This document shows, in pieces, positions 6,050-35,730 of a stretch of 35,743 nucleotides of DNA. The notes beneath the pieces are model-generated. The model was not told the DNA's origin. It ran no database searches and saw only the letters and a program-made list of their open reading frames with translations. Numbering within the stretch: the first letter of the stretch is position 1; each line of letters starts with the position of its first letter. The position numbers were made by a program, and so were the translations under genes. Origin of the DNA: Rhodopila sp. (GTDB lineage Bacteria > Pseudomonadota > Alphaproteobacteria > Acetobacterales > Acetobacteraceae); NCBI GenBank assembly GCA_025355085.1, contig JANXLQ010000032.1:1-35743 (forward strand). The letters run 5' to 3'.

Positions 6050-6664
6050 TCAGCCACGCATCCTGGTCTTGAGGGTTGTTACGAAGTGAGCGGCCCGGGG
6101 CGAACCGGCTATGACTTGACGGGGATCGATCCTGGCCAATAATTTGAAGGAATGCTCGCCCTTCCCATAAGGCGCCTTGGTCTTGCAGGCACCGGAAGAC
6201 TCTGCCAGAGCCTGATAGACAGAGTTCTTCGATATGGATTCGATATCCCTGCTTGGGTGGGGAAGCTTCGCCGGGTTAAAGCCCTGGCCGAAAAACGTCG
6301 CAAGCGTAGCGTGGTCGGTCAGAAACCAGCTTTCCATGCACTGCACCATCAAGTGGCAATCGTCATCCGAGGCGTTTGGCGGAGACTCCCAATGATCGCC
6401 GGTCCGATTCAGAAGATGCCGCCAAGGCGAACGGCCGACAATCGCATCTTCACTATCGACAAGTAGCATGGCTGCCTGGGTGCCTTGCTTTAAAGCAGTA
6501 CAAAAATCCTCGTACGCCTGTCTGCGGCCGCCGCATGCGACAATCCGAGGCATATGGCCTTCAAGGCCAGCGCGTCTTAAAAACGTTGCAAATCCTTCGC
6601 GGCAGGCCGTTCGAAGGAATTTCGAATCACCGCCGCCCTCCACATAAAGGCGCATCCCTACCAT
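6050..6664 (-). CDS. TOPRIM-like / DUF4276-like protein, partner of the AAA ATPase
   Basis: 204 aa; N-terminal MRLYVEGGGDSKFL and LLVDSEDAI resemble TOPRIM E and DxD motifs; start overlaps the end of the upstream ATPase gene. Confidence 0.65.
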   Translation of the reverse strand: MVGMRLYVEGGGDSKFLRTACREGFATFLRRAGLEGHMPRIVACGGRRQAYEDFCTALKQGTQAAMLLVDSEDAIVGRSPWRHLLNRTGDHWESPPNASDDDCHLMVQCMESWFLTDHATLATFFGQGFNPAKLPHPSRDIESISKNSVYQALAESSGACKTKAPYGKGEHSFKLLARIDPRQVIAGSPRAAHFVTTLKTRMRG

Positions 6665-7860
6665 CGTGTTCCGCCGATCTCACCCCGTGTCCAAAGTTCA
6701 CCAAGGCGATAGCGGTCCAGCCAGACCTCCACGTCACTTTGCGATAATCGGTGCAGCGTCGTCGCACCTTCATGTTTCTCGCAGATCAGCACCACTTCCG
6801 GCGTATCGGTCATGGCATCCACCAGAACATCCGAATGCGTCGTTACGATGATCTGGCAACGGGTGGAGGCGTCTCGCAGCAATTCCGCGAGGGTTGGCAA
6901 AATGTCGGGGTGCATGCCCAACTCAGGTTCCTCAATGCACACCAAGGGCGGCGGGTTGGGGTCGCACAGAACGGCGAGTAAGCACAGATAGCGCAAGGTG
7001 CCGTCTGAAAGGCGTGTAGCCGGAATGGTCATTTTGCCTTCGTGGAAGAACACCTGAACGGTGCCGCCTTCGATCTGCACATCGAAGTCGTCGATCCCGT
7101 TGTATAATTTGCGAAGTGCGTCGAGGAGGCGCGCTTTCGATGCCGGGTCCCGGCGCAGCCGGTTGAGTACAAGGCCGAGATTGCTGCCATCCGACTCTAG
7201 CCATTTGTTCGGCAGATCGACTTTTTGCGGCATACGCGGCGCGGTATAGCGCCCGAATGTCCATTCCCGGTACAAACGGATATTCGGTAAAATTTCCGCA
7301 AGATACGTGATTTCGGGGTATTGGTCAGGATCGCGGCGTTGTGCCAGGATTGAGCGCTCCACATCGATCGCTTCGCGCTTGAGGATGCGTTTTTTTCCAG
7401 CGATGTTTAAAACCGGGCGTCCACGCTCAAAACGATAATAAAAATACGGCCCGATCTGACCATTATCCGGCTTGTCATTCTCGATTCGCTCATCCACGAT
7501 TTCAAAGCGCTGTGCCACTTCGGTAAAAGAAAGGACATATCTAAGGCTTGTTGGTCCCTTTGGATTCGAAATGACCGCATTGATGGTCGCCGTGGGCATT
7601 TGCTCTGCCCCTTTCCAAAGCCAATCGCGGATACCGCCGCCTTCGCGCACCGGCGTGGACAGCGATCCCGGAGCGTGCTTGAGCAGATCGATTGCTTCCA
7701 ACAAATTGGATTTTCCCGATCCATTCGGGCCAATAACTAAATTGAGCGGCCCAAGCGCAATCGGCTCCAGGTTGGCCCCGAAGCTAAGAAGGTTCGAAAG
7801 TGTCAGTTGTTCGACCAACATGGTGATTTTCCTACCGGCGGCACAGCATAATGAGATCAC
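6658..7860 (-). CDS. AAA family ATPase (AAA_21/RecF-like)
   Basis: 400 aa; Walker A GPNGSGKSN, ABC-like signature LSDGTLRYL, Walker B LVCIEEPELGMHPD, H-loop IIVTTHSDVLVD. Confidence 0.85.
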   Translation of the reverse strand: MISLCCAAGRKITMLVEQLTLSNLLSFGANLEPIALGPLNLVIGPNGSGKSNLLEAIDLLKHAPGSLSTPVREGGGIRDWLWKGAEQMPTATINAVISNPKGPTSLRYVLSFTEVAQRFEIVDERIENDKPDNGQIGPYFYYRFERGRPVLNIAGKKRILKREAIDVERSILAQRRDPDQYPEITYLAEILPNIRLYREWTFGRYTAPRMPQKVDLPNKWLESDGSNLGLVLNRLRRDPASKARLLDALRKLYNGIDDFDVQIEGGTVQVFFHEGKMTIPATRLSDGTLRYLCLLAVLCDPNPPPLVCIEEPELGMHPDILPTLAELLRDASTRCQIIVTTHSDVLVDAMTDTPEVVLICEKHEGATTLHRLSQSDVEVWLDRYRLGELWTRGEIGGTRW

Positions 7861-7988: not shown

Positions 7989-9266
7989 TTATCCCTCTTT
8001 AATGTCTCTGTGAACATCTTCCCGAAAACCCATCTCGATCAAAGAGGTGCCGAAACCTGAGGACAGCGGGCCATTTGACCGGTCGGCGGTGAGATAGCCT
8101 GGCAGGGCCGCCTTGGCCTCCGGATGCCCCCGGACAGCGAAATTCCCTGTCAGGTCCATGGTCCCGTGCGCGCCTCGGGTATTGATCCGGTCCATCGCGA
8201 AGTCAGCCGGCGTTACGCCCCAAATCGCGGCTGCATCGTCCGCATGTGCGTGCGCGAGGCTGGACCATTTCGCCGTTGCCGCCTTGTGGCCGTTCGCATG
8301 GCATGTGTCCTTTTCCGAACCGCCGGCCGCGGTGACATCGTCGGGGTTGTGGATGAACGCGCTCCGAACAGGCGCGGAGTCGTTCTCCCTGGCTTGAATT
8401 GTTTCCTGTGTCACCTCAGCCGACGGGCCGGAATGGGCCGTCTCATGCCGCGTCCTGTTGGACCGGGGCGGCGGGATTGCCACGACCGCCGGGCCGGCCG
8501 ATGGAGCCGCCGTGTTCACATTGAACCCCAGCACACCCAGCAACGTCTTATCGACCGGTGTCATAACGCCATTCATTCCGGGATGAGTCAGGTATCCGAA
8601 CGCGTCGCCATTGGACGTCGGGGCCCAGTCGGCGGTGTCGCCTACGGGGGCGAATTGTCCCAGGTTCGTTTTGCCGCCGTCGAGTGAAAAATAGCCTCCG
8701 GTATTCGGCGCCGCCAGCACGCCCGGCGCCGTGTAATCGACCAGTTCCAGTGGACCGTCGGAATAGATACGACCGAGCGCGTGGGCGATTTCATGTTCTG
8801 CGAGACCGATGAATCCGAACAGGCCGGGCGCACTTTGGTTATTGGGGTCGAAGCTGTAACTATAAGCCGAACTGAAACTAATCTGCCCGTCGGGTGGCGT
8901 TGCGGCGGGCGACAGCAGACCCAAGGCTTTCTCCTGTGCCGGGGCAATGTAATAGCTGCCGATCTGTGGGGGCGCGGTTGCCGGCAGGAATGCCAGTGCC
9001 TGCCTAGCCTCCGGGTTGCTTGCGTTGGCCGTCAGGGTCGCGACAAGATTGGCGTAGGACATAAAGATGCCGCCCAAAGGGGAGCCTTCCGCCACATTGC
9101 CAGACCCCAGGGGCACACCGCCGATTTCATCCCACCCGACGTTAATGTTGACCGTAATTGGGTTGGCGATCAACGCATCCAGCACCCCGGCAACATAACT
9201 CAACGCGGCGCGAAATCCAGCCGGCGCGGACCCGGTGCTTGGTTCATAGTTGAATTGAATTTGCAT
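7989..9266 (-). CDS. NF038122-like metalloprotease
   Basis: start MQIQFNYEPSTGSAPAGF at 9266; HEIAHALGR zinc-protease motif; the upstream extension in the ORF track is low-complexity and non-coding-looking. Confidence 0.7.
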   Translation of the reverse strand: MQIQFNYEPSTGSAPAGFRAALSYVAGVLDALIANPITVNINVGWDEIGGVPLGSGNVAEGSPLGGIFMSYANLVATLTANASNPEARQALAFLPATAPPQIGSYYIAPAQEKALGLLSPAATPPDGQISFSSAYSYSFDPNNQSAPGLFGFIGLAEHEIAHALGRIYSDGPLELVDYTAPGVLAAPNTGGYFSLDGGKTNLGQFAPVGDTADWAPTSNGDAFGYLTHPGMNGVMTPVDKTLLGVLGFNVNTAAPSAGPAVVAIPPPRSNRTRHETAHSGPSAEVTQETIQARENDSAPVRSAFIHNPDDVTAAGGSEKDTCHANGHKAATAKWSSLAHAHADDAAAIWGVTPADFAMDRINTRGAHGTMDLTGNFAVRGHPEAKAALPGYLTADRSNGPLSSGFGTSLIEMGFREDVHRDIKEG

Positions 9267-9774
9267 AGTATCCCCTTTCTTGCAATGGTCCGAGGGGGTA
9301 TCTTTCCGTCCGATGATTTCTAAATGCGAAACAAGATTTTGTGTTCTGGTATGGGAAAAACAAATAAAGTTATTTCTAATTGTTTCTTTTCGAATTATTT
9401 TATTATTGCTCGTAATGCTGCAAAGCGGGCGGCCTTCATCCTGATGCCCGGCTTGCTCGCCGCCACTCGGTTTTTTTTGGTCTCGACCTGGCTGAAATGT
9501 TCGAAAATCCGTTCCGCCAGGGCGGTCTTCGAAATACACTCCCGTCAGTAGTGCAAGCGGCCCGACGGGGCAGGCGAACGCTGAGGACGATAGCCTGCGG
9601 GATGCTGTCGTCGAGGTGGCTGCTAAACGCAGACATTCTCTGGCCGATTTCAGGGAATGCGGATTCGATTCACGATCGCCACATGTATATAAAGCATAGC
9701 CTAAATATTATTGCTTCAGGTTGTTTTCGTTGCATTTCGTTATGGACTGGCTCGTCCGGGGGGTTACGATCAGC

Positions 9775-9866: not shown

Positions 9867-9994
9867 GCATCTGCTGTTCGGATAGGGCGGAACGACCATT
9901 TTATGGCATGGATCGCTCGCCATTTCCCGCCAACAGCGTTGCGCGCGAGACGGCAGTTCTCATTCTGGTAATCGTTGCTGCAATTATGTTCCTC

Positions 9995-10082
9995 GTTATG
10001 GTGCGCGAAGGCGCGTCATCCATGTTTTTTGGCGGCCTGGAACAGATAAAGACGTGGATGGCACACCTTCGCGCACCATGAC
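9995..10082. repeat. REPIN-like inverted repeat, copy B
   Basis: left arm atggtgcgcgaaggcgcgtcatccatg; right arm cgtggatggcacaccttcgcgcaccatgac. Confidence 0.8.
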
Positions 10083-10163
10083 GACGTGGGACACAGTCGC
10101 CGCTTTACCAAAATGAGAACTGCTGAGCAGCACAGGACCGGCTCGCGCGTCAGGGCATCTTCG

Positions 10164-14577: not shown

Positions 14578-14689
14578 GGGGTCCTCCGATTACTGGTGTG
14601 GCCAGCGTTGGGCGGAAACGTCGCATGGCCGGGTGGATTGCCGCAAGGTCTCGGCATGTGCTGAACAGGGCGATCCGGTGAAGGTCGTC

Positions 14690-14745
14690 TCGCACCATGA
14701 CGACGCGGGACGCAATCGCCGCTTTGCCAAAACGAGAATTGCTGG
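14690..14745. repeat. partial dispersed repeat (right end plus tail of REPIN-like element)
   Basis: tcgcaccatgacgacgcgggacgcaatcgccgctttgccaaaacgagaattgctg matches 10071-10134 with few differences. Confidence 0.65.
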
Positions 14746-15809: not shown

Positions 15810-16046
15810 GTGGCGAATTTGGTCCAGACCGAGGCCGTGGGCAACATGGCACTTCCGCAAAGATGCGATGGCCGTGATCTCGTGGTTCGGGATTGGGGTG
15901 AAACCGGCCTCCCTGGTTCTTGCGACGATGGGCGCAGGCTTGGTTTCTGAGCCATTACGACGCATGGCGAGGCAAACATTCTGGAAGGTGTTTCCCCGCT
16001 CCTCATGGCGGCAAGGTTTGGCAAAGTAGCGATGGTGTCTCCGATC

Positions 16047-16133
16047 GTCATGGTGCGCGAAGGCGCACCATCCATGTCTTTTGGCATCTCGGACCAGCAA
16101 AAACGTGGATGGCGCGCTTTCGCGCACCATGAC
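16047..16133. repeat. REPIN-like inverted repeat, copy C
   Basis: GTCATGGTGCGCGAAGGCGCACCATCCATGTCTTTTGG ... AAAACGTGGATGGCGCGCTTTCGCGCACCATGAC; arms pair over about 35 nt and each arm has its own hairpin. Confidence 0.85.
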
Positions 16134-16215
16134 GATGAACGTGCGAGACGACGTTCATCCGATTGCCCGGGGCCTGTATTGTCCATCGCAGCGGTCTTGG
16201 TTTAATCCAATCCCC

Positions 16216-34305: not shown

Positions 34306-35730
34306 TCAGAATAAGGCACTGCCGTTGCGCAGTCGGCCTATCTCCTCCGCCGACAACCCCAGCACCGTCCGCAACACCATGTCCGTATCGGCACCCAACT
34401 CCGGCGCCGGTTCGTTGGTCCGTCCGAACGAGGCGCGCCATGGCAGTCCGGGTATCACACCCGTGCCGTGTCCGTCCCAAAAGCCGCGTGCCCGAAGATG
34501 CTCACTGTCAACAAGGTCCGCCGAACGAGCCAGCGGACTGGACGCGACCCCGGCGCGGATAAAGGCTGTCAAAGCGTCGTCCGGAGATGGGGACTCTACT
34601 GGCACCGGATCGATTGCAACCCAGTCATCCGAACCGGCACAGCGAGAAACGGCTCCGCTCTCCGGCAGGCGCGGTGCAGCCGGCAGTTGCCCGGCCAACA
34701 GCGGGTCCGCCATGGTCCACAGCATTGCCTCAATCATCGAGAAATCTACCCTGGCAACGACACCGGAGCGCCGCCGCGACACTGCTGCCGCGGTAATGAA
34801 CGCCAGCATTAGCCCGCACATCGGATCGAGCCATGCCATGCCGACCCGCGGCGCCCGATCCGGATGGCGGTTCAGCCCGGCGAACCCGGCGTAACATTGC
34901 AGCAACGTCCCATAGGCCACGGCATGCGATTCCGGACCGGTGCGCCCGAGTCCGGAGGCGGACACGTAGATTAGGCGCGGGTTGATCGCTCGCAGTGCCT
35001 CGGCGCCCAGGCCGAGGCGGTCCATTACGCCGGTGGCGAAGTTCTCGACCAGCACATCGGCGTTTGTTGCCAGGGCTTTGGCAATTTCAATGGCCTCGGG
35101 TTTCTTTAGGTCCAGGACAATGGCTTTCTTTGCCTGTCCGAGTACCGAGTGCAGTTCGGAGGCGCGTCCGGGGTCACCCTTGCCGGGGGCCTCGATCTTG
35201 ATGACCTCGGCACCCATTGCGGCGAGGTAACGGGTGGCGGTCGGGCCGGCGATCACCCAACTGAAGTCGAGGACGCGGATGCCGGACAGGGGAAGCGGAC
35301 CTGTGGGCGTCAAACTGGCCGCATGTTTGTCGCGGTTCGATTCTGTTTGTTCGTCGAACAGACTCCCGGCTTTCGCGCCCGGCGGTGCCGCTTCAGCCAA
35401 AGTCGTGGGTGGCCGGGCCAAGCCCGGCCATGACGCATGGACAACTGGCTGTGCCGCATGGACAACCGGCTGTGCCGTATGGACAACCGGCTGTGCCGTA
35501 TGGACAACTGGCCATGACGCATGGACAACTGGCCATGACGCATGGACAACCGGCTGTGCCGTATGGACAACTGGCCATGACGCATGGACAACCGGCTGTG
35601 CCGCATGGACAACCGGCTGTGCCGCATGGACAAGAGGCAGTGCTGTCTCGCCTAATTCAGCGACAATACCCTCGGTCCCTGTCACCGTAACGGTGTGAGT
35701 CGTGCCGTGTCCCTCTTCAAGTGAAGGCAT
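34306..35730 (-). CDS. CaiB/BaiF family CoA-transferase with repetitive N-terminal extension (ORF may continue past the window edge)
   Basis: LSGIRVLDFSWVIAGPTATRYLAAMGAEVIKIEAPGKGDPGR, NADVLVENFATGVMDRLGLGAEAL; core could start at a TTG at 35313; N-terminal (VVHAxxP)n repeats. Confidence 0.8.
   Translation of the reverse strand: MPSLEEGHGTTHTVTVTGTEGIVAELGETALPLVHAAQPVVHAAQPVVHASWPVVHTAQPVVHASWPVVHASWPVVHTAQPVVHTAQPVVHAAQPVVHASWPGLARPPTTLAEAAPPGAKAGSLFDEQTESNRDKHAASLTPTGPLPLSGIRVLDFSWVIAGPTATRYLAAMGAEVIKIEAPGKGDPGRASELHSVLGQAKKAIVLDLKKPEAIEIAKALATNADVLVENFATGVMDRLGLGAEALRAINPRLIYVSASGLGRTGPESHAVAYGTLLQCYAGFAGLNRHPDRAPRVGMAWLDPMCGLMLAFITAAAVSRRRSGVVARVDFSMIEAMLWTMADPLLAGQLPAAPRLPESGAVSRCAGSDDWVAIDPVPVESPSPDDALTAFIRAGVASSPLARSADLVDSEHLRARGFWDGHGTGVIPGLPWRASFGRTNEPAPELGADTDMVLRTVLGLSAEEIGRLRNGSALF
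35410..35430. repeat. REP-like palindrome, second family
   Basis: TGGCCGGGC-CAA-GCCCGGCCA perfect 9-bp stem; minus-strand reading MAGLGPATHD resembles a common alphaproteobacterial dispersed palindrome (from memory). Confidence 0.75.
35435..35644. repeat. 21-bp tandem repeat (minisatellite), 10 units
   Basis: units g[c/t]atggacaac[t/c]ggc[tgtgcc/catgac] read directly; last unit degenerate. Confidence 0.95.

Follow-up and report, generated by a model that had tools for sequence, protein, structure and literature searches.

The name HEC, for Hma-embedded candidate, was reportedly defined in a 2024 preprint by Payne et al. According to a 2026 paper that cites the preprint, several HECs showed antiviral activity (PMC12988326). 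HEC-04, in which an ABC ATPase and a TOPRIM domain are fused, is reported in another paper to protect against T4 and T5 (PMC12111858). HEC-04 (IbfA) stems from the same discovery series as HEC-01 and shares with it the combination of ABC ATPase and TOPRIM, but it is a single protein, whereas HEC-01 consists of two genes, HEC-01A and HEC-01B. Within the literature that we searched, HEC-01 appears only where it is listed for a genome (PMC12724379), and DUF4276, the family of HEC-01B, goes unnamed.

Other described systems resemble HEC-01 in layout or in parts. In PARIS, a tested example of ATPase/nuclease logic (PMC12839542), AriA and AriB are also separate genes for an ABC-type ATPase and a TOPRIM nuclease, but AriB belongs to DUF4435 rather than DUF4276. 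Class 2 OLD and GajA likewise combine an ABC ATPase with TOPRIM, and their metal ligands and lysine occur in the order seen for the candidate residues of HEC-01B. OLD proteins of classes 1–3, however, are single fused chains, and Gabija has in addition a helicase, GajB, which HEC-01 lacks. WonAB, PD-T4-4 and Septu (PtuAB) are, like HEC-01, two-gene systems of an ABC ATPase and a small nuclease, but their nuclease is of the PD-(D/E)xK or HNH type; for WonAB, a tested example of the same logic with another nuclease, protection is abolished when either activity is lost (PMC12137116).

We analyzed a window of 35,743 nucleotides from Rhodopila sp. (contig JANXLQ010000032.1 of assembly GCA_025355085.1), in which an earlier note had picked out two overlapping open reading frames as a split ATPase/TOPRIM-like pair that is not obviously PARIS, Gabija or RloAB. 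Both frames are present as two genes, in different reading frames with a stop between them, and the start of the second overlaps the stop of the first by 7 nt (Table 1). On sequence grounds the pair belongs to HEC-01, a candidate anti-phage system that is already catalogued. The PADLOC model for HEC-01A (PDLC04177) matches the ATPase at 8.8e-185 and 612 bits over profile positions 3–393 of 393, the model for HEC-01B (PDLC04201) matches the small protein at 2.1e-77 and 257 bits over positions 1–200 of 202, and the two genes are adjacent in the order A before B. For the ATPase, the highest-scoring model other than those of HEC-01 is the generic AriA (129 bits, E=7.5e-38), and an NCBIfam search of the pair returned generic ATPase matches only, all under their cut-offs. 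The pair is thus not an uncatalogued system. The note's proviso of a match to an already characterized subtype applies in part, since the HEC-01 models fit both genes. For Rhodopila sp., this is an ordinary stand-alone copy of it.

Table 1. Positions of the HEC-01 genes and of their main motifs in the window. Residue numbers of HEC-01A follow P0002, in which M has number 2.
Feature	Position	Strand	Remarks
HEC-01A	6658..7821	minus	ABC-type ATPase, Pfam AAA_21, 387 aa, most likely ATG start at 7821
HEC-01B	6050..6664	minus	DUF4276, 204 aa, predicted TOPRIM nuclease
HEC-01A Walker A (P-loop) GPNGSGKSN	7705..7731	minus	G32, N34, G37, K38, N40 invariant in 73 homologs
HEC-01A Walker B / D-loop CIEEPELGMHPD	6904..6939	minus	E299, P300, E301, G303, H305, D307 invariant
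HEC-01B TOPRIM motif 1 VEGGGD (E9, D13)	6626..6643	minus	E9 73/73; position 13 D 56/73, E 3/73
HEC-01B TOPRIM acidic pair LVDSE (D70, E72)	6449..6463	minus	D70 and E72 both 73/73
HEC-01B CHLMVQCMESW, holds E111 (proposed metal-B ligand)	6326..6358	minus	C103, L105–V107, M110, E111, W113 73/73
HEC-01B YGKG, holds K168 (proposed OLD K562 equivalent)	6158..6169	minus	Y166 73/73, K168 71/73

The list of open reading frames had HEC-01A begin with a GTG at 7860. Because the N-termini of homologs lie near the ATG at 7821, and because an AGGA ribosome-binding site stands eight bases ahead of that codon, the ATG is most likely the start. The note's impression that the ATPase gene is less GC-rich than its neighbors is confirmed: the genes of the pair have a GC content of 0.55–0.56 and a third-position GC of 0.60–0.62, whereas the 11 further window genes that were compared have a third-position GC of 0.69–0.82.

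HEC-01A matches Pfam AAA_21 (E=3.9e-38), which Pfam describes as a putative AbiEii-type toxin domain. The Walker A, signature (LSDGT), Walker B and H-loop (TTHSD) motifs that had been read from the sequence are all present, and S273, G275 and H330 are invariant among the 73 homologs in addition to the residues in Table 1. The label 'AAA ATPase', on the other hand, does not fit. HEC-01A belongs with the ABC-type ATPases (SMC/Rad50/OLD-like), not with AAA+, and its AlphaFold2 model (pLDDT 91.9) finds its best Foldseek matches in SMC/Rad50 heads and in PtuA. Since the key residues are invariant in 73 homologs, the motifs quoted for both proteins are features of their families and not chance resemblances.

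The small protein matches DUF4276 (E=7.7e-23), which Pfam lists as a family of unknown function. The segments YVEGGGDSKFL and LLVDSEDAI, in which the note had seen the TOPRIM glutamate and DxD motifs, do hold a glutamate and a pair of acidic residues where they were expected, and G10 is also invariant in the 73 homologs. A strict DxD, however, is not found: the second acid is a glutamate, and the motif reads D-S/A-E in all 73, so we call HEC-01B TOPRIM-like by fold and not by strict motif match. Its AlphaFold2 model, built with the 73 homologs (mean pLDDT 96.0, pTM 0.91), has strands at residues 4–8, 40–43, 64–70 and 103–106 that alternate with helices. E9 directly follows strand 1, and D70 and E72 lie at the end of strand 3, the layout of a TOPRIM domain. 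In a Foldseek search against the PDB, the five best matches are C-terminal TOPRIM regions of OLD proteins from Burkholderia and Xanthomonas, with probabilities of 0.89–0.99 and E-values of 0.009–0.07, none of which reaches 0.001; full-length Thermus OLD ranks eighth, and the remainder are scattered. These E-values are modest, yet the top five agree, and we take the match to the OLD TOPRIM domain as valid. As judged from the model, the TOPRIM fold that the note had expected for the 204-aa protein is well supported.

Sequence comparison points less directly to OLD. When PDB sequences were searched, neither HEC-01B by itself nor the 73-row profile had a relevant match. In profile-profile alignments, E9 falls on the TOPRIM glutamate of DUF4435 and D70-x-E72 on its DxD (E=3.1e-5, 73% probability); the same residues also fall in register with OLD, but at a probability of only 6%, so the link to OLD rests on fold rather than sequence. 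In the OLD protein of Burkholderia, the metal ligands include E400, E404, D455, D457 and E508, the last on the first helix of the helical domain that follows the TOPRIM core, and K562 is the catalytic lysine (PMC6755086). E9, D13, D70, E72, E111 and K168 of HEC-01B occur in the same order, with spacings of 4, 57, 2, 39 and 57 residues as compared with 4, 51, 2, 51 and 54. From this order and from the predicted fold, we infer that the HEC-01B residues are equivalent to the two-metal site and lysine of Burkholderia OLD. DUF4276 thereby gains a proposed active site that can be tested, that of an OLD-type TOPRIM with ligands E9, D70, E72 and E111 and lysine K168.

The two genes are consistently found together. 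When 84,980 species genomes were scanned with an alignment of HEC-01B, 95 stretches were confirmed. We retained 80 of these, and one more came from viral contigs. A match to the ATPase lies directly upstream and in the same orientation in all 81 of these loci, so the co-occurrence on which the note had made its reading depend is seen. HEC-01A and HEC-01B overlap by 4 or 7 nt in most of the loci and the gap in the others does not exceed a few tens of bases; three loci have a broken ATPase frame, and in two more a contig end truncates it. In all, 14 phyla are represented among the sequences of the tree. The minimum number of phylum changes would be 13, whereas the ATPase tree requires 19. A Castellaniella copy and a Comamonadaceae copy show no difference at all, which suggests recent transfer. 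No close relative was found in the phage and plasmid collections. The one contig from the viral collection (L102) carries HEC-01 directly before PglX, and its ATPase is nearly identical to a copy on a Burkholderiaceae chromosome (L069); for both reasons, the contig is perhaps, and likely enough, a fragment of a host genome or island.

Several relatives lie inside BREX operons. BrxC is the gene immediately upstream in 11/63; PglX is immediately downstream in three that were checked, one pair is preceded by PglX, and in one PglZ comes next. Independently, a 2026 survey described TOPRIM-linked OLD-ABC pairs in BREX loci and proposed a backup suicidal role for them (PMC12839542). Because this survey very probably includes pairs like HEC-01, the link to BREX is not ours to claim as new; in such operons a PARIS-like backup role of HEC-01 is directly testable.

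The copy in the window is placed differently. It stands alone among metabolic genes, as the note had stated, rather than embedded in a defense operon: it sits between a TRAP transporter (DctQ, DctM) and one open reading frame, and those neighbors in the window that could be assigned are metabolic or transport genes. Ten window proteins, the nearest neighbors included, were scanned, and no convincing defense protein, and no defense island around the pair, was found among them; matches of neighbors to mad3, for example that of one ABC exporter, are probably generic ABC-ATPase matches. No PglZ was found in the genome.

Within the genus, the pair comes and goes. Among about 30 genomes, four others hold intact copies and one (G010) a remnant, and the neighborhoods of the copies differ except in G011 and G028, which share one. 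To either side of the site, G010 shows synteny with the window (about 77–87% identity), but only about 300 bases separate its amidohydrolase gene from its FAD oxidoreductase gene (contig C92, about 9341–9643, L017); the TRAP genes are likewise absent there. What this interval retains of HEC-01B is a stretch of 134 bases that matches its 3′ end; HEC-01A is represented by a match of 26 bases (E=0.002), likewise to its 3′ end, and the two follow each other as they do in the window. As 3′ fragments of both genes remain in order, the pair most likely once stood at this site and decayed. In G046 (contig C220, 3326–5119, L018), a HEC-01 pair lies between ybaB-like and recR-like genes, names that were read from the sequence and not from a family search; its HEC-01B runs across two frames, owing either to mutation or to an error in sequencing. 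The earlier idea of a mobile cassette therefore finds agreement in the patchy occurrence and changing neighborhoods, but no mobility gene was seen beside the pair.

The same genome encodes two further DUF4276 proteins, each following an overlapping ATPase gene. These pairs, on contigs C358 (4601–6381, L020) and C249 (7197–9178, L021), match other HEC-01 submodels with high scores (PDLC04175/04188 and PDLC04184/04209), and their ATPases are only about 26% identical to that of the window, so the genome holds three divergent HEC-01 pairs. What is new here is modest: a proposed active site for DUF4276, a decayed locus in a congener, and a genome with three copies that diverge from one another.

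Taking the analysis as a whole, we think it probable that HEC-01 is a system in which an ABC-ATPase sensor controls a suicidal TOPRIM nuclease, because of the full-length HEC-01 matches, the fixed pairing, the OLD-like model, the invariant residues and the BREX neighbors of relatives. HEC-01A, an ABC-type ATPase of the OLD/AriA/PtuA kind, would form a dimer that binds HEC-01B, a small protein predicted to be a TOPRIM nuclease whose two-metal site resembles that of OLD, and holds it inactive. A phage product or event would be sensed by HEC-01A through ATP binding and hydrolysis. HEC-01B, once freed or activated, would then cut host nucleic acid, DNA or RNA, and the infection would be aborted. 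The glutamate as second acid, the Foldseek E-values above 0.001 and the lack of a defense island in the window count against this model.

A less likely course of events is a DNA-directed defense like that of class 1 or 2 OLD, in which the ATPase loads the TOPRIM nuclease onto phage DNA, which is nicked or degraded without suicide of the host. Among solved structures, HEC-01B comes closest in fold to the DNA-cutting C-terminal domains of OLD, which share its order of ligands and lysine, and the heads of SMC and Rad50 are closest to the HEC-01A model; against this, the DUF4435 (AriB) profile aligned better to HEC-01B than the OLD profile did, and in RNase M5 and AriB a comparable two-metal TOPRIM site acts on RNA (PMC12409363). 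The two-metal site consequently settles neither substrate, and we regard DNA and RNA as about equally likely for HEC-01B.

It is rather improbable that phages are not the target and that the pair is a toxin-antitoxin-like or housekeeping module for nucleic-acid processing. The AbiEii-type annotation of AAA_21 and the metabolic surroundings in the window would suit such a module, as would the archaeal OLD-family ATPase Cran1, which is reported to act in the cell cycle and not in defense (PMC12796447). Nevertheless, the pair is present, intact or residual, in only 5 of about 30 congeners, its neighborhoods change, it has decayed in one congener, and it recurs inside BREX operons; defense fits these observations better than housekeeping does. 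PARIS proper deserves hardly any credence: the split layout is the same and the generic AriA model does match the ATPase, but the HEC-01A model outscores it, AriB is absent among the 50 Foldseek matches listed for HEC-01B, and no DUF4435 match was reported for the 73 homologs at E<=10 by a program whose filters drop most weak matches.

Three other assignments were considered and rejected. No helicase adjoins the pair, whose neighbors are DctM and one open reading frame, as Gabija would have; the fused chain of OLD classes 1–3 is replaced by two genes; and no reverse transcriptase, as in a retron, was found among the neighbors scanned. The note's description of a split pair distinct from PARIS, Gabija and RloAB is borne out. 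Extending the sensor-nuclease model, we suggest, quite tentatively, that DUF4276 may be a split OLD-like class of TOPRIM whose partner ATPase senses phage counter-measures. HEC-01 might then, in many bacteria, back up BREX as a suicide switch, and in hosts such as this one it might stand guard by itself, and a single genome could hold three divergent versions with different triggers.

Some further features of the window were seen. The open reading frame adjoining the ATPase gene (7989–9233) has a zinc-metalloprotease-like motif, HEIAHALGR, and no Pfam match at E<=0.001. Related, partly palindromic REP-like repeats, 76–88% alike, occur at 9988–10125, 14688–14744 and 16017–16140, and the low-GC region in which the pair lies has one of them at its border. 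Near the end of the window, a tandem repeat (35424–35646) lies in an open reading frame with PVVHAAQ/PVVHASW repeats.
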